Source: Fusarium oxysporum f. sp. lycopersici 4287
Taxonomy: Eukaryota > Ascomycota > Sordariomycetes > Hypocreales > Nectriaceae
DNA: 64,000 nt
NCBI RefSeq assembly: GCF_000149955.1
Contig: NC_030995.1
Span: 1,798,001 to 1,862,000, forward strand
Direction: 5' to 3'
Below are positions 1 through 11,089 of this stretch, piece after piece. The notes beneath the pieces are model-generated. The model had not been told where the DNA came from. It searched no databases and saw only the letters and a program-made list of their open reading frames with translations. Position 1 is the first letter of the stretch. Each line of letters begins with the position of its first letter. A program made the translations under genes and the position numbers.

Positions 1-1234
1 ACCGTATGGACGCTCTCCCTAACAGCACTGCAAAGACCGAGCTGTGCCCTCAGGTTGTCTTTGGTTGTGGATTTGCTAGCTGCAAGGACCGTGTCTTTGA
101 GGCTTCGTCCAACGACCAGGCTTCATCTAGCCGCGACAAGTACTTTGAGCATATCGCTAAGCACTTTGAGGATGGCTTTGATGTGAACAACTGGGAGTAC
201 AAGGTTCAAGTGCACAATCTCATGCGTCAGCCAAGGTCAAGTCTGTCTTCAAAACTTGCATCTGGCCCAAGGAGAAGAGAATGCAACTCACATGGCGCCC
301 TCGCTCCTCCGGTGATCTCAAGCGTATGCTTGAGGCCCGTCATCTCGGTGAGGATATCTCGACACTTGTGCGTCTTGCTTTCATCCTGGGCACATCGCCT
401 TTCACCAGTCCTACTACACCACCACCAAGCGAGATTGACTTGCAGTTCTCTCTGCCCTTCCGATCTCAATGCTTGATGGACACAGTTGGCCATGCCGATG
501 GTGCTCAATCCACGGCGGCCGAGACCAGTGAGACCAACACACCCATGGTCACTGTGACGAAGCAGGCTCCTCAAACACCGGAGGCACCTTCGTTCCCTGC
601 CCGACGCATCAAGCAGGAGACTCGACCCACGACACCAATGGACGGTCTTCCTGAGCCTATGGTTCACGATGATCTCACTGCTGGCCCTCATCCTGGAACA
701 CCGTTCCCCATTCCTAACGAGCATGTCTGGCCAGTGGACGCACCCAAGTTTGCTCCTGACCAGATGAACACCTTTGCTGATGCTTCCATGACCTACATCC
801 TGCCTGGTCAAGAGCTTCCTCAGCAACAATGGGACATGACTGGCATGCAACAGCACTTCCCCCAACAAGACACTGTCATGTCCAACGTCTACATGCCTCC
901 CCAACAACCTGTAGCTGCTCGCCCTGCTACACCTATTCCTTCAAAGCGACCTGGATCTTGGGGCAAGAGACTAAGCCTTGAGAACTTGCGTCCTAAGAAG
1001 AAGACAAGCGTGTATGGAAGCCCTGCTTCCGAGCACGAGGCTGTCCCTCCTGTGCCAGCCATGTATGCCGAGATGATTCCCACGTCTATGCCAGCGGGTT
1101 ACGAACTGCCAATGCGAATGGGCCACCACCAACAAGGGTACACATCAAACCCTGGCTTTATGCCCCAGGCTCAACAGCAACAGTTCGGCTCACCCACGAC
1201 ATTTTACTTGGATGACGGGGACATGAGACTATAA
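1..1234 (+). CDS. C2H2-finger-like fungal regulator, 5'-truncated, apparent frameshift
   Basis: The gene runs in from the left edge and ends with a TAA-type stop at 1234. The first segment carries a zinc-finger-like C-x(n)-C...H-x3-H arrangement (cysteines in CPQVVFGCGFASC, then FEHIAKHFE). The second has a conserved-looking block (KTCIWPKEKR, WRPRSSGDLKRMLEARHLGED), then a long Pro/Gln/Met-rich tail of the kind seen in fungal transcription regulators. The first segment is in frame 3 and the rest in frame 2. The switch is needed near 230-236 (CAGCCAAGG), where one extra base would join the two halves. No GT-AG intron fits. Either a sequencing error or a real -1 lesion explains this. DNA binding and a nuclear role are inferred from the finger-like pattern only; the target is unknown. 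Confidence 0.6.
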
Positions 1235-3530
1235 GGCGTTTTTAATCTCGGAACGGAAAAGCATTCTTTGAGCATCATGATTTCATTTATTCTCTTTTTC
1301 TCAAGCTCTGCATTACCATATATCTGTACTAATAATCACCCCTGAAGAGGAGGACGAGGAACATAACGACAGGATACCCATCCTCCACTATCTGACGAAC
1401 TTTCTCTTGTTACACATTTCCTTTTTGTCTGTCCTGGATATACCAGGACAACCACATACCTATTTCTTTTTTTGTCTTTTCTTGAGTGTCATTGTTAGTC
1501 ATTTGTTTGCTTTGAGATACCACGGTGTTGAAGAAGGATGGAATGAGATGAGACGGGAAACCAAAGTCATGGAACGCTGCATAGGGCACAGAATTGTTTA
1601 ACTGCAGCATGTTTTTGTTTTCTCTCTGTTGAATATTGCATCTTTCGGGCGGTTTTATGCGTGGATTACTATACCGGGATTGGCAGATACCCTTGTGTGA
1701 GGCCAGCAAGCAATTGAGGATATTTGCTCTGGCGGGATACATATGAATAGATAGGGAAGGAAGCATGTCAGCAAGATATATGAATTAATAGAATCTTGGA
1801 GAATATCTTTTGTGTCGTTCGCATGAGTGAAGTCTTGGGCTGTATTGACTGGCCACACAACCAAACAATATCTTGCTATCTGTACTTGAGTGTATGGCCG
1901 TGCTTGTGCCTCGCTGAAACTCATGTACTGTGTCGATTCAATGTTGCAATCATGCCTTGATGTTAAATCATACCACTGTTAATGGCATGCGTGTCCCGGG
2001 ATAACTGAACTGAGAATTATGATGGACAGCTGTCCATTTCCATGTAACAGTCTCAACAGATAGGCTTTATACATAAAATTGTGATTAGAACAAAGCGGCT
2101 GAAGCAACACTTGATGCCGCTTCCCACAACGGAGCACCCTCGACATGGGAGGCAGATCTTGGCCGTATCTTAGTCCAAGGTGCTTATGGTATATGTCATT
2201 CCGCGCGAAATAAAGAATGGGAAGTCTGATACAGGCCAGAACTTAATGACCTGGAGTTTGGTGTCAGCCTACATGTTATCTACTCACATATGGTGATCGC
2301 CTCCTGAAGTGACTGACAGCATGATGCTCCTCTACGATAAGCAAGAAAACTTGAGACCTCTATCCTAAGGGGTGAAAAGACTTAGGTAAATTTAGTATAG
2401 ACTTAGTGGGACTTTAGATGAGTTATGTCCAGTATGCTAGCTTGATGTCAGAAAGTTTCATCGTCCCATGAATCTCCCGAAGTTCCTGTGAAGATGATGG
2501 AAGGCCAAAACTGCGCCGATAAAGAAGATGATACCCCCAGAGGAAAAAATTGAGGTTTAAAAACCCACAGGTATCTTGAGAATAAACTTTGTATGAGAAA
2601 TGGTGATATACTGGCCGAGTGACAGTTGCCGGGGTCAAGGTATATTAGCGAGGCGGGAGCATCGTGAAAATAACAGGGCAATTAACAGTAAAGTCACAGA
2701 TCAGTGACAAAGGAAAGAAGTCGCAGTGAACTTCGTCACTCCAAAGCCTTTCTTTTCTTGAGGGGCTGTAAGGTGGCAGAATTACGGTTTTGTTTGTGAG
2801 TCACAGCAGTCTCAAGGCGTGGCTCAGCAGAGGGACAGCGTTCGTGACCATGAACTCTGGTGATGAACCACAGGCTATATCTATGGAAAAATAAGAATGT
2901 GGTAAAAATACAGTGCAATATTCTGTCGGAGATGTCGCCTTTCGTTGTGCTGTTTGGACTGGCTGATTGGCATCGCGACCCTTGACATCCAACGGGTGGT
3001 GGTGGGAGCGAGATAAGAAGCCTCTGACGACCCTAGAGGTTGCGATATGAGCAGAAAGCAGTCTACAGATTGGTTAAAAGGTCTGAAAATATACAGAATT
3101 CAGATAGAACGAAAGGGAGGTCACGGGTGAATGGTATTCGCAGTACGCCTTGAAGCATCCAAAGTGCGAAGAGCCAAGGTTGAGTGACAGTAGACTCGAG
3201 CCTTCGAGCAAAATGCAAAGGCGGAGTCCCATGTCAAATGGGATCATTTTGGAGAATTGGTGACCGAGTCACACAGTCGTCGTCGTTGAGGGATGCTGTG
3301 GATAGGAACACCAAGGCAAGAGATCATCCATGCAATGTCGATCACGATGCAGAGACAGACAGAACATTTCACAGTTTGCTAGAGGCATGACCTATGGTAG
3401 AATAACCCAAAAAACAACAAAATCTGGCATGAAAGCGTGCTGTGTTTGTTCCTGGGACTGAGTTCACGTGAATGGTGTGCCTACTTATACTGGTTCAAAA
3501 CGCAGCCTTTCACCAGCAAAGCTCAAGCAA
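1235..3530. other. Intergenic stretch, no supported gene
   Basis: This holds the 3' flank of the left-edge gene and then about 2 kb in which only short frames without splice support or recognisable motifs occur. I see no repeat or RNA gene here. Confidence 0.5.
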
Positions 3531-3655
3531 AGCAGCTTGGCGCAGTGGAAGCGCGGTATGTTTCTTCTCCACTATATGACTCAATAACAGAGTACTAACA
3601 TATCCCAGCCGGGCTCATAACCCGGAGGTCACTGGATCGAAACCAGTAGCTGCTA
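3531..3655 (+). tRNA. Initiator tRNA-Met (CAU) with a spliceosomal-type intron
   Basis: Exon 1 (3531-3555) gives the 5' acceptor strand AGCAGCT, TG, the D arm GCGC-AGTGGAA-GCGC and G26. Exon 2 (3609-3655) gives the anticodon arm CCGGG-CTCATAA-CCCGG, the variable loop AGGTC, the T arm ACTGG-ATCGAAA-CCAGT, the 3' acceptor strand AGCTGCT and discriminator A. The acceptor pairs perfectly, and the ATCGAAA T loop is the eukaryotic initiator hallmark. Removing 3556-3608 leaves exactly 72 nt, the size of yeast initiator tRNA. An A box (TGGCGCAGTGG) and a B box (GGATCGAAACC) are present, and a T6 Pol III terminator follows at 3667-3672. The interruption lies between positions 26 and 27, not at the canonical 37/38 site. 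Confidence 0.9.
3556..3608 (+). other. Spliceosomal-like intron inside the initiator tRNA gene
   Basis: The 53-nt segment begins GTATGT, contains the exact branch consensus TACTAAC (3593-3599; branch A 3598, ten bases before the end) and ends CCCAG. These match this organism's mRNA introns. No bulge-helix-bulge with the flanking stems is apparent. Splicing by the spliceosome is an inference from these motifs. Confidence 0.8.
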
Positions 3656-3666
3656 TGAAGCATTTC

Positions 3667-3672
3667 TTTTTT
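3667..3672 (+). terminator. Pol III terminator of tRNA-Met
   Basis: A run of six T lies 11 bases beyond the mature tRNA 3' end. Confidence 0.8.
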
Positions 3673-4463
3673 GCACTTTCTTTGTCCAGAGTTTTCGATT
3701 GCTGGTTGATGGGCAAAACTAGAGCCGGGCTGTTTTTGGCTGTGAAACCCCTGGTTGGCATCTTTTATTTTTCGAGAACCATGGAGCACGAGCGGAATTC
3801 CCGAGCACTTTAATGGGGGCTCCTAACACGGCTGATTCCACGATATGAGTTCTTGATATCCCAAATCGATCTTGTGTGCCGGATTCGGCACGGCGCAAGA
3901 AGCGAAGTGGATCCCCGGCGCCGGAATGGATAGCAGAGAGCCAGCCCAGCATGGTGATCCAACCTTGCATTTGCCTGCAATAGCTTGTGAATATAAGCTT
4001 GGTAATAGTCTAGGTAATCTCTCTCCTTGATCAAGTGCTATAAATTACAAACTGGTAAATTTCCAGGCTTTCCCTGAAAGCGTCTTGGAACTTCAATTGA
4101 CAACTCCACAGAAGTATGTTGACAAGGAAAAAGAATGTTGCTTATCGATGCGCCAACTGCCCCATCTGTTATCCCTAGCTGCTGAGAACGTCAGGTCAAG
4201 CAGATAAAATCTCCATTCGAGTGACCATGTTCCCCGACTTATTTATTAACAGTCTCGCTCCTCAGAGTGTTGGACAGGTGTCACGTGGCCCGAAACAATG
4301 AGTGGAGTCAAGTGTCCATCTTTGCCCCACCCACTCTATATGTTCTCCAGACTTCATATGCTTACAACTCCATCAAAACGCATTGGATCGACATGAAAAA
4401 TATCTCAATCGATTCTCCTTGACGAGGAGCATAATTACAAAACGTCAAAAGGATCAAAAAAAC

Positions 4464-4549
4464 CTCCCACGACGAGACTCGAACTCGTAACTTTCAGATT
4501 TCAATGTTTTGTAAAAGTCTGACACGCTAACCAATTGCGTCACGCGGGA
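4464..4549 (-). tRNA. tRNA-Lys (UUU) with a short canonical intron
   Basis: Read on the minus strand: acceptor TCCCGCG pairs with CGTGGGA (one G-T), the D arm is ACGC...GCGT, the anticodon stem TCAGA/TCTGA, the T arm ACGAG-TTCGAGT-CTCGT, and the discriminator G. The anticodon loop reads CTTTTA, then about 12 nt, then A, so a UUU anticodon with an intron at the usual 37/38 position gives a 74-nt mature body. Seven T residues (complement of 4456-4462) follow as a Pol III terminator. The intron borders could shift by a base or two. Confidence 0.85.
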
Positions 4550-4962
4550 TTTGACTGGTTGGAAGAATGCACCCCATAATTTGGATTCTATTCGCAGTTG
4601 CGGCAGGTGCGTGCAGCATTGCAGCTTCCTCTTTTGGTCCTTCCACGTTGTCCGCAGATAACACTCTCTTGATTGAGGCTTTAGAGCTTCTGTACTGGCT
4701 CTTTACTCGCACTTGTCTCACTGAAGCCACTTCTTTCTCACAGTACCTTGGTATGGTGTAGCATCGGCTTGGCGGTCTAGAAGCATGTTGGATAGACGCC
4801 AACTCCAATGAGATAACGCTGTACACCCTTGCGCCGTCGACAAGGGCTTGTAGGATCCGACTAGACAAAAGGTCCTTGAATTCTCCCGAGACTACGTGGC
4901 CCTCTGAATACTGATCTCACATTCAACCTTTCTCCCATTATCGTAATTTGAGTTCTCGAACA

Positions 4963-7600: not shown

Positions 7601-10600
7601 TCAATAGGTCCCAGTTGAGCCTGCATTTCCTAGGCAGTCTTCTATCCTCTGGAGCCTTGCTTCTATTCCTTCTTGCTTCCGGCTCTGCTGTTGTCTTTCC
7701 TGAATATCTTCCAGGCCAAGTTGATAGAGGAAGCGGTTCCATCTGCCTGCCGGCAGGGCCTTTGTTAATCCGTCTGCGATCATATCCGTTGATTTGGTGT
7801 ATTTGACTTGAATTCTCCCTTCTTGGACCTCCTGTCTCAGCCAGTGGTTGTGAATATCCACGTGCCGCAACTTAGTCTTCAAAGTAGCGATTTCGGCGGT
7901 CACAAGGTTGATAGTTTGAGTATTGTCGCAGTCGATACGGATAGTCGGATCATCCATCTGAACTGTAAGCTCTTTCAACAGCCGACTCACATAGAGGGAT
8001 TCCTTAGCAGCCTGTGCCAGGGCTAGGAGCTCTGCCTCTGTTGTGGATGTGGTGACTGTGTCCTGCTTGCTAGCTCTCCAGCCGATCAACCCGTCGAATA
8101 GTCGGATAGTGTACGCTTGGGAGCTTTTCCGATCAAGGGTGTTATCGGCAAAAGAAGCGTCACTAGCAACTGTAAGACCTCCGGGCCCTCCGAATCGTAG
8201 GGCTCGGTGCCTTGTGTGTGAGAGGTAGTGGATAACGCGGTCGGCGGCGTCTTGGTGTTCTTGGCCAGGGTTGACAAGAAATCGGGCCAGCCTGGAGGCG
8301 GCGAAAGCTATGTCAGGCCGGGTGTTAACGGCGATATAGAGGATCGAGCCGACTTTACGTTGATATCGTTGAAGTTCTGCCGGGGTTGCTAGTCCTGTTT
8401 GAGGTCGTAGCTCTGTTTGAGTCATTGGTACTGTAGATGTTCCCTTGTTAGCTAGATTTGCGATTTTGTCAATGTAGGCTGTTTGAGATAGCCAAATCTT
8501 CCTTGCAGGTCGGTCCCGTATGACTTCCATTCCTAGGAACCATTGCACGGGGTCTCCGCCTGTTAGTTTGTATTTTGATCCAAGCTGTCTAGTCAATTCA
8601 TCGGCCTTGTCTTTCCGGGCCTTCCTGTAAGCGATGATAACATCGTCAACGTAAAAGAAGAAGAGGACTCCTTCCTTCTTGAAACAACAAGGTTCGTGAG
8701 GAATCTGTGTGTAGCCTAACTCTAGGAGGGTCTTCGAGAGTTCTTTCTGCCATAGCAAGGGAGAGGCTCGTAGTCCGTACAGGGCCTTGTTGAGCTTCAG
8801 GATAGTTGCTGTTTTCTTATACCCCGGGGCCATGTGCATGAAAATATCCTGGTCAATTGGGGCGTTTACGAAGGCGTTGACCACATCGTATTGGACCATC
8901 TCTAGGTCAAATCTGGCCGCAATGGCTATCAGGGTCCGGAAAGACCTTCCGGCTAGGGTAGCTGCATATGTTTCTTGCAACCTTCCCTTAGCTTGTTGGT
9001 CTCCTCTGACCACTAGCCGTGCCTTGCATTTCTGAAATCGGCCGTGTTTATCGAACTTGTAAACGTATACCCACATACAACCAAGGACTTGTTGGTCAAC
9101 GGCGCAAGCGTCTTTCTTTCGAATCTCAGTCCAGGACCTCATTTCCTTGTGACTCTGAAGGTGGCTTTCTTCAGCCTCTTGAAAGAGCATTCCAAAAGGG
9201 TGATGCTTTAGGTCTTGATGTTTCGTCGGGGGCGGCGGTAGAGAGTTTCGATGCATTTTCACCCCTTGTCGGAGCTTCCGTTCAATTGAGGTCTGGAGAG
9301 GGGACTTTGTTCCGGCTAGGAAGGCTGCTTGCCACGAGACTGTTTTGTTTCCTTCGTCTGATAAGACCCTGGAGCTGTGCGCTAGTAGCGCTGACAGTGG
9401 TGTGACTGGAGGTGTTAGAAGGATATCAGAGTCTTCTGACTGTTTAAGGCCGTTTTCTAGGGCAGTCGCCACGATGCAGTCTTCTGTTTCGTCTGTAATA
9501 GGGCTGCTTTCGTCTGCTAGGGTGGTTGTTGGAAGGACCACTTCAATACAGTCTTCAACCTGTTCGGCTTGTTCGTTGTCGTCTTGTTCCGGCAGGGAGG
9601 ATCCTTGTACGAACTTGGCAACTTCTTCTAGGTCAGCTTCGAGTAGTTCATCTTTGAAGCTTTCCCAGTCTCCGTTGCAGCCTTCGTCTTCATTAAATAT
9701 GACGTCTCGAGTATTGACTATCCGGTTGATCGTGGGGATCCAGATCCTATAGATATTTGAGGACCTATATCCCACTAGGAAGCCGATCCAACCTTTGGGC
9801 TTAAGCCGCATCTTGCGATTGACCTTCTGCTGGGCATCTGAGGTCATTGCATAGGCCTTGCAGCCAAATGCCCGTAGGTGTGTTTGATCCGGCTGTTTCT
9901 TCGGCTGTGGAATCCCTGCTGCTTTGGCTGATGCTGTATGCAGTTGATCATATGGCGTTTTCCAGCCTGATGCGTAGTTCGGCGTTCGGTTGTACAGATA
10001 AACTGCTGTCCTTCCAATTTCTGGCCACAGCTGGTGAGGAAGCTTTGCGCCTGTTCGCATAGCCCTTTCCTTGTCCTTGACTACACCCCCTGAGCGTTCG
10101 GCACCCCCATTCTGGGCTTGTGTGTATGGGGCCGAGGGCTCGATGATGATAGCTCTATTCCTCAGGAAGTCTCCGATTTTCGGCTTGATCTCCGTGATCT
10201 CGTTATCGCATTCGATGACTTTGACCTTGAGGCCGTGTTGGACTTCCAGATGACTTAGGAAGGATTTGAAAGCGGTGATAACAGCTTCTGTCGTCCGGGC
10301 TGTGAGGTAGTAATCCCAGATGTAACCCGTAGCTCGGCAGGTTAACAACATCTGTGAGGTATAGCCGCCTATGCCTTCTTGGTAGTCATGGAAGTCAATA
10401 GCGATACGCTCGCCGGCCTTCTGATCGGATTGTCTTGGGGCTCGTCTGATTTGTCTCTTGATCTTCGATATGCCACAGGCGTCGCATTCAACAGTGGCTG
10501 GTCCTCGTATTCGCACCCCTTGAGAGGCCGAGATAAGATGTTCCAGAGCTTGTGGTCCCGGGTGCCCTAGGCGACTGTGCCATCGGATAGCTTCTCCCGT

Positions 10601-11089
10601 CAAAGGGGCTCTCTTTGTGTGAGAGCTGAATCTGTGGGCTGCAAAGGCTGCTTTTGGGAAGCTTTCTGACTGGTATTCGACGACATACTGGCCGTATAGG
10701 TCATGGATTGTGCATGCAATCGTTCGGTCGAGTCGTCGGAGGGTCGTTGGGTTACGCCTATTATCCCAATAGAAGCCTTTCTTTCGTAGTTGACGTAGGG
10801 AGACTAGGGTCGTAAGGAGCCGAGGGCAATAGGCTACATCTTCAAGCATTAGGACTCGAGTTCCTGTGAGCCTGATGGTCATGGTTCCGTAGCCTAAGAT
10901 GGGTAGTTTTCGGTCTCCTGCCCAGATGAAGTCGCCTGGAATAGCCTGCTGGAATCTCGCTAGTCTGTTGGCACTGTTTGTGATTGAGATAGTAGCTCCG
11001 GGGTCGAGGATCACGGAGTTCCGTAAGGGATAGTTATCCCTTTGGGCTGCAAAGGCGGTCTTGATTTCGGCGACTGGTCGGCCGTACAG
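7601..11089 (-). CDS. pol: Copia Pol polyprotein
   Basis: The open frame begins directly after the UGA that ends gag and stops at 7601; the first ATG inside it is at 11014. The protease region has LDPGAT where retropepsins usually have D-S/T-G. The integrase has an HHCC zinc region (H near HSRLGHPG, CDACGISK) and a D-D-E core (IDFHDY, IECDNE, GGAERSGG). The reverse transcriptase has YVDD in FFFYVDDVIIAY and the upstream block YDVVNAFVNAPID. RNase H carries VASDASFAD, TTEAELLAL and the C-terminal DIHNHWLR / DMIADGLTK blocks typical of copia. All catalytic residues seem present. Translation probably depends on read-through of the gag UGA, because the frame is continuous and the first ATG falls inside the protease. 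Confidence 0.93.
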   Translation of the reverse strand: MYGRPVAEIKTAFAAQRDNYPLRNSVILDPGATISITNSANRLARFQQAIPGDFIWAGDRKLPILGYGTMTIRLTGTRVLMLEDVAYCPRLLTTLVSLRQLRKKGFYWDNRRNPTTLRRLDRTIACTIHDLYGQYVVEYQSESFPKAAFAAHRFSSHTKRAPLTGEAIRWHSRLGHPGPQALEHLISASQGVRIRGPATVECDACGISKIKRQIRRAPRQSDQKAGERIAIDFHDYQEGIGGYTSQMLLTCRATGYIWDYYLTARTTEAVITAFKSFLSHLEVQHGLKVKVIECDNEITEIKPKIGDFLRNRAIIIEPSAPYTQAQNGGAERSGGVVKDKERAMRTGAKLPHQLWPEIGRTAVYLYNRTPNYASGWKTPYDQLHTASAKAAGIPQPKKQPDQTHLRAFGCKAYAMTSDAQQKVNRKMRLKPKGWIGFLVGYRSSNIYRIWIPTINRIVNTRDVIFNEDEGCNGDWESFKDELLEADLEEVAKFVQGSSLPEQDDNEQAEQVEDCIEVVLPTTTLADESSPITDETEDCIVATALENGLKQSEDSDILLTPPVTPLSALLAHSSRVLSDEGNKTVSWQAAFLAGTKSPLQTSIERKLRQGVKMHRNSLPPPPTKHQDLKHHPFGMLFQEAEESHLQSHKEMRSWTEIRKKDACAVDQQVLGCMWVYVYKFDKHGRFQKCKARLVVRGDQQAKGRLQETYAATLAGRSFRTLIAIAARFDLEMVQYDVVNAFVNAPIDQDIFMHMAPGYKKTATILKLNKALYGLRASPLLWQKELSKTLLELGYTQIPHEPCCFKKEGVLFFFYVDDVIIAYRKARKDKADELTRQLGSKYKLTGGDPVQWFLGMEVIRDRPARKIWLSQTAYIDKIANLANKGTSTVPMTQTELRPQTGLATPAELQRYQRKVGSILYIAVNTRPDIAFAASRLARFLVNPGQEHQDAADRVIHYLSHTRHRALRFGGPGGLTVASDASFADNTLDRKSSQAYTIRLFDGLIGWRASKQDTVTTSTTEAELLALAQAAKESLYVSRLLKELTVQMDDPTIRIDCDNTQTINLVTAEIATLKTKLRHVDIHNHWLRQEVQEGRIQVKYTKSTDMIADGLTKALPAGRWNRFLYQLGLEDIQERQQQSRKQEGIEARLQRIEDCLGNAGSTGTY

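Follow-up and report, generated by a model that had tools for sequence, protein, structure and literature searches.

The window analysed here, a stretch of 64,000 nucleotides from Fusarium oxysporum f. sp. lycopersici 4287, holds a gene for the initiator tRNA-Met that is split after its 26th nucleotide by a short insert with the signals of an mRNA intron (Table 1). Eukaryotic initiator tRNA-Met has a CAT anticodon, a full cloverleaf, a T loop with A54 and A60 and an A1-T72 pair. Once the two exons of the window gene are joined, they give 72 nt that ARAGORN calls tRNA-Met(CAT), with 21/21 stem pairs Watson-Crick, an ATCGAAA T loop and A73. A preliminary description of the locus had claimed that taking out a 53-nt insert of the form GTATGT...TACTAAC...CAG leaves an intact 72-nt initiator tRNA, and both the letters and ARAGORN agree with it. 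The names A box and B box are given in Table 1 to the motifs that we take to be the internal promoter elements of Pol III. The unspliced gene was reported neither by ARAGORN run over the whole window with bacterial settings nor by Rfam at the gathering score. When introns are allowed, ARAGORN misplaces the intron and reads an anticodon other than CAT in this gene and in the six others described below (7/7).

Table 1. The interrupted initiator tRNA-Met gene of the window (positions within the window) and the two U6 copies of the same genome (contig and positions).
Feature	Position	Strand	Basis or remark
Exon 1: acceptor 5' strand, D arm, G26	3531..3555	+	Letters, alignment of loci, ARAGORN on joined exons
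A box (TGGCGCAGTGG), wholly within exon 1	3538..3548	+	Position same in 7/7 loci
Intron, 53 nt, at 26/27, with mRNA-type signals	3556..3608	+	Signals common to 7/7 paralogues
5' splice site GTATGT	3556..3561	+	Unchanged in 7/7
Branch site TACTAAC; branch A at 3598, 10 nt to intron end	3593..3599	+	ACTAAC in 7/7
3' splice site CAG	3606..3608	+	CAG in 6/7, TAG in 1/7
Exon 2: CAT anticodon arm, variable loop, T arm (initiator-type ATCGAAA loop), acceptor 3' strand, A73	3609..3655	+	
B box core (GATCGAAAC), in exon 2; starts 97 nt from A box start	3635..3643	+	
T6 run, probable Pol III terminator	3667..3672	+	T6 or longer within 30 nt in 7/7 loci
U6 copy	C4:3413432-3413598		57-nt intron GTAGGT...CACTAAC...TAG between AGAAGAT and TAGCATGG
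U6 copy	C7:3890980-3891082	+	Two introns, 49 and 51 nt; match below Rfam cut-off

The gene lies in an interval, from 1234 to 4948, in which no open reading frame of at least 130 aa is listed. Another tRNA gene, with a short insert near the canonical 37/38, lies 0.8 kb away on the minus strand (4464-4549); by its anticodon loop it is apparently Lys(TTT), and ARAGORN calls it Ser(TGA). Further on, the pol of a copia-type retroelement (RVT_2, Pol_BBD) occupies 7601-11014 of the minus strand. Copia-type elements are known for half-tRNA priming, which provides the comparison for a motif of the LTR-type elements in this genome: all ten stretches read (on contigs C1, C3, C4, C6, C9, C10, C13 and C14) carry GGTTATGAGCCCGG directly after CA, complementary to nt 27-40 of the initiator tRNA. 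The sequence GGGCTCATAACCT was found in 58 of the 100 matches listed (out of 109), mostly on C3, C6 and C14. As evidence for the splice junction these primer-binding sites are not decisive, since the pairing ends at nt 27, where exon 2 starts.

We searched the window's own assembly (61.2 Mb in 71 contigs) for other initiator genes. The 200 bases round the window gene matched seven places. With a pattern that joins the initiator anticodon to the initiator T loop, 87 places matched at no more than one mismatch, against 45 in the reversed control; the nine exact matches were the same seven loci and two that, by their letters, are chance matches. The one-mismatch place at C5:1988603 was read and is no initiator tRNA, and the remaining such places were judged from their 27 printed bases alone. 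In all seven loci (7/7) the CAT anticodon, the full cloverleaf, the A54/A60 T loop and the A1-T72 pair are present after joining, and the two halves are separated at 26/27 by 48-53 nt. The preliminary description had placed an intron with mRNA splice signals at 26/27 of the window gene, and the same arrangement recurs in the seven loci found. The sequence GGGCTCATAACCC occurs exactly seven times in the assembly, once per initiator gene, and no contiguous G26-C27 copy was found in it with 30 bases spanning the junction and up to three mismatches allowed. Two of the genes stand divergently at C5:1178139-1180832, their 5' ends about 0.3 kb apart, with a 5S rRNA gene about 2 kb away. The preliminary description had also held that several intron-free initiator genes elsewhere, together with a lack of reads across the splice junction, would make the window gene a dead copy. 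The other initiator genes it proposed to look for exist, each one that was found is interrupted, and with no uninterrupted copy found the first half of that test did not refute the reading.

Exon 1 is identical in four of the seven loci, the three others differing at two compensated acceptor positions, and together the loci encode three isodecoders. Base pairing is Watson-Crick in 147/147 stem cells (21 pairs in seven genes). At six of the pairs (acceptor two, T stem four) both partners have been substituted. On this pattern of substitution the exons are kept as tRNA genes. One might nevertheless argue that the seven loci are all dead copies, and that the working initiator genes either lie outside the assembly or have diverged beyond the reach of the searches. 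The assembly, with its 71 contigs, may indeed be incomplete, the pattern searches tolerate limited divergence, and Rfam scored just 63 of its 2201 first-look tRNA candidates. Yet, all 63 scored loci were read, and the initiator T loop occurs in 0/72 of the ARAGORN calls made there (overlapping loci being counted repeatedly). Moreover, perfect pairing and six compensated pairs are unexpected in dead copies whose flanks lose their likeness. We thus regard it as exceedingly improbable that these are relics.

The seven intron sequences are all different, with variation starting at intron position 7, i.e. immediately after the GTATGT that opens every one of them. ACTAAC is present in 7/7 (extended to TACTAAC in five), with the branch A 9-12 nt from the intron end, YAG closes 7/7, and the first base of exon 2 is invariably C. 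In sequence of the same composition, a GTATGT start, a YAG end and an ACTAAC 3-15 nt before YAG would come together by chance with a probability of about 3e-8 per intron. Between these signals, the intron interiors have a pairwise identity of 0.53-0.73, with a mean of 0.61 against 0.55 in their own shuffles (21 pairs); 6/21 pairs exceed the shuffles' 95% mark, leaving a trace of likeness in some pairs. The flanks stand at the shuffle level: upstream the mean identity is 0.59 (shuffles 0.57), with 2/21 pairs above the 95% mark, and downstream it is 0.62 (shuffles 0.62), with 0/21. The constancy of the signals amid interiors and flanks near shuffle identity indicates that they are held by selection, and in this the introns look like spliceosomal introns under selection. 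Compensated exon pairs beside such unlike flanks further indicate that the intron is old relative to the duplications of these genes or that it was spread among them by conversion.

These introns also resemble those of Fusarium mRNAs. In the available part of a study of four Fusarium species, mRNA introns are given as 42-529 nt long, with a CTRAY branch site in 91% and a YAG end (PMC5677156), and the initiator introns fit this description in length, branch site and 3' end. There are two small departures from the table as available: GTATGT, although within the Fusarium consensus, is not the commonest 5' splice site (position +4 is A in 42% and T in 22%), and exon 2 opens with C where the 3' site is printed as YAG|R (PMC5677156). 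Candidates of the form GTA(A/T)GT...(A/G)CTAAC...YAG other than the initiator introns numbered six, against a mean of 1.9 in ten shuffles (269,060 bases, overlaps included), a count that omits loci brought in via the splice pattern or U6; with these it is 11 against 1.3 per shuffle.

Might the splice-site pattern be incidental, and the cut at 26/27 be made by a tRNA endonuclease of broadened range, as happens at non-canonical sites in red algae and nucleomorphs? Cyanidioschyzon and nucleomorphs are both known to have tRNA introns of a non-canonical kind (PMC4090602, available text), and disrupted tRNA genes are described in Cyanidioschyzon (PMC3978253, available text). The bulge-helix-bulge scores at 26/27 are those of shuffles (5-6 of 11 under strict rules, 6-8 of 11 under relaxed ones), but the canonical introns used as controls also score like shuffles, so that these scores speak neither for nor against the endonuclease. 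What does tell against it is that the bases kept in 7/7, within strongly diverged sequence, are GTATGT, ACTAAC and AG, i.e. spliceosomal signals, which makes endonuclease cutting at this position unlikely. Nor was a common fold seen among the 5/7 precursors that were folded: the 5' splice-site stretch pairs with differing later stretches of the intron in three of them and does not do so in two, with folding z-scores from -0.7 to -2.4, the window copy having the lowest. Hence, we attach very little probability to an endonuclease acting at 26/27.

A type 2 gene of Pol III has an A box, a B box and a T-run terminator, and all three are present in the sequence of 7/7 initiator genes. The A box in exon 1 and the B box in exon 2 are intact in all of them, their starts 92-97 nt apart. 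A run of T6 or longer follows within 30 nt downstream in 7/7, whereas such a run is found behind 6/65 of the other tRNA genes and in 0.9% of random stretches; among those other tRNA genes, 28/65 have five or more T and 42/65 have four or more. CAA occurs in the last 12 nt upstream of 6/7 initiator genes, compared with 27/65 other tRNA genes and a background of 19.5%. TTTT, whose absence from an intron Pol III would favour, is lacking in the seven introns, which is not significant (P ~0.33); it occurs in 1/6 of the other mRNA-type intron candidates.

Other Pol III genes of the same genome put this arrangement in context. Two U6 matches were obtained among the 47 scored of 3779 candidates, one above the Rfam cut-off and one below, and both copies are interrupted (Table 1); the first intron of the copy on C7 contains TTTT. 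With U6 loci carrying mRNA-type introns, Pol III genes of this fungus can be said to carry such introns. No large insert was found in the remaining small RNAs that were searched: the 47/47 scored matches to 5S rRNA (of 2656 candidates) cover 120 nt, one match to SRP RNA has 294 nt for 293 model positions, and two matches to RNase P RNA are 330 and 320 nt long where the model has 301 positions.

The U6 genes also bear on the possibility that the tRNA is made by way of a longer precursor transcribed by Pol II, from which the intron is removed as in an mRNA and the tRNA is cut out by RNase P and RNase Z. The splice signals are of the kind found in Pol II transcripts, and the ORF-poor interval of the window leaves room for a non-coding transcript. 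But comparable introns are present in both U6 loci found in this genome, and U6 is classically transcribed by Pol III. In addition, most pairs of flanks are at the level of shuffles, which leaves neither a shared Pol II promoter nor a shared host transcript to be seen. The lack of shared flanks, the intact A and B boxes and the T6 or longer run right behind 7/7 genes make Pol II transcription less likely, and we hold it to be improbable as the source of the precursor.

Textbook tRNA splicing is carried out by the tRNA endonuclease and a ligase at position 37/38. In this genome, inserts near that position are seen in the calls for elongator tRNA-Met and for tRNA-Lys, Ser and Tyr. Among these calls, two tRNA-Met(CAT) genes without the initiator T loop (L104 and L107) have inserts of 36 and 39 nt near 37/38 in the ARAGORN register. 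The initiator and the elongator tRNA-Met thus seem to be spliced by different systems in this fungus. A search for GTATGT...CTAAC introns ahead of a standard B box in other tRNA types returned three matches, against three in the reversed control; none of the three can form a T stem, their pairs at that place numbering 3, 2 and 3 out of 5. Within the limits of the GTATGT...CTAAC pattern, the mRNA-type intron thus seems to be confined, among tRNAs, to the initiator.

These observations are best accounted for if the initiator tRNA genes are transcribed by Pol III and contain, at 26/27, a spliceosomal intron of the U2 type, and if pre-tRNAiMet is spliced by the spliceosome, an explanation that we consider highly probable. 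The preliminary description had already proposed that the spliceosome splices a Pol III tRNA precursor, and the invariance of GTATGT, ACTAAC and AG in seven out of seven loci now lends support to that proposal. Pol III would transcribe the whole unit, from the A and B boxes through the T run. GTATGT would then be recognised by U1 and afterwards by U6, and ACTAAC by U2. The spliceosome would take out the 48-53-nt intron as a lariat and join G26 to C27, which would yield mature tRNAiMet of 72 nt. The inserts near 37/38 of the other tRNAs should, from where they lie, fall to the tRNA endonuclease, which would not be used for the initiator. We infer from sequence the transcription by Pol III, the excision by the spliceosome and the order of splicing relative to the trimming of the 5' and 3' ends.

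If this is true, uncapped, tightly folded RNAs made by Pol III can be regular substrates of the spliceosome, and the start of all translation hangs on splicing. It is somewhat more probable than the contrary that the whole initiator tRNA supply of this fungal lineage passes through the spliceosome, with translation initiation depending directly on splicing capacity. In that case U6, which would itself need splicing, would complete a circuit through which growth rate might be coupled to splicing, and nuclear tRNAs would have two splicing systems, the endonuclease for elongators and the spliceosome for the initiator. Such an arrangement would also account for the initiator genes of a genome like this one being overlooked or wrongly named by standard tRNA finders. 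In these genes nature would provide a trial of splicing on RNA that has neither a cap nor a Pol II tail, and a comparison of related fungi with and without the intron would allow it to be dated.

Among the matches listed in a search of open-licence full text, a collection from which subscription papers are mostly absent, none reported a tRNA gene with a spliceosomal intron. The word stem 'spliceosom' is likewise absent from the main text of the article on tRNA introns cited above, as available (PMC4090602). Outside the fungi, two initiator patterns gave 0 matches each in bacterial and archaeal contigs; in viral contigs one pattern gave 0 matches and another seven stretches whose letters are not tRNA-like. 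Closer at hand, the available text on Trichoderma simmonsii reports three tRNA-iMet predicted by tRNAscan-SE (PMC8600724). If these genes are uninterrupted, Trichoderma lacks the intron, which then may not be general among relatives.

Canonical nuclear tRNA introns also interrupt the gene between the A and B boxes, yet they lie at 37/38, as do most eukaryotic ones according to the available text of PMC4090602, whereas the initiator introns lie at 26/27 in 7/7 and carry mRNA signals. The non-canonical tRNA introns of archaea, red algae and nucleomorphs lie, like these, outside the anticodon loop. Those of archaea and red algae rest on the bulge-helix-bulge (PMC4090602, available text), whereas the motifs found here in 7/7 are spliceosomal. 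Parallels are provided by U6 and U3. Fungal U3 snoRNA genes contain ordinary short spliceosomal introns, and U3 and U6 are described as the only small structured RNAs in which interruptions are known to be frequent (PMC5832005, available text). Yet, U3 is no tRNA, and its introns are described as varying between close species and even between paralogues (PMC5832005, same text), whereas 7/7 initiator copies are interrupted here. U6 of Schizosaccharomyces pombe and other fungi reportedly also has an mRNA-type intron in the gene of an essential small RNA made by Pol III. A survey of U6 introns in fungi was reportedly made by Canzler et al. in 2016. Compared with U6, the host of the intron is here a tRNA, the intron separates the internal A and B boxes, and it occupies one and the same site in seven paralogues.
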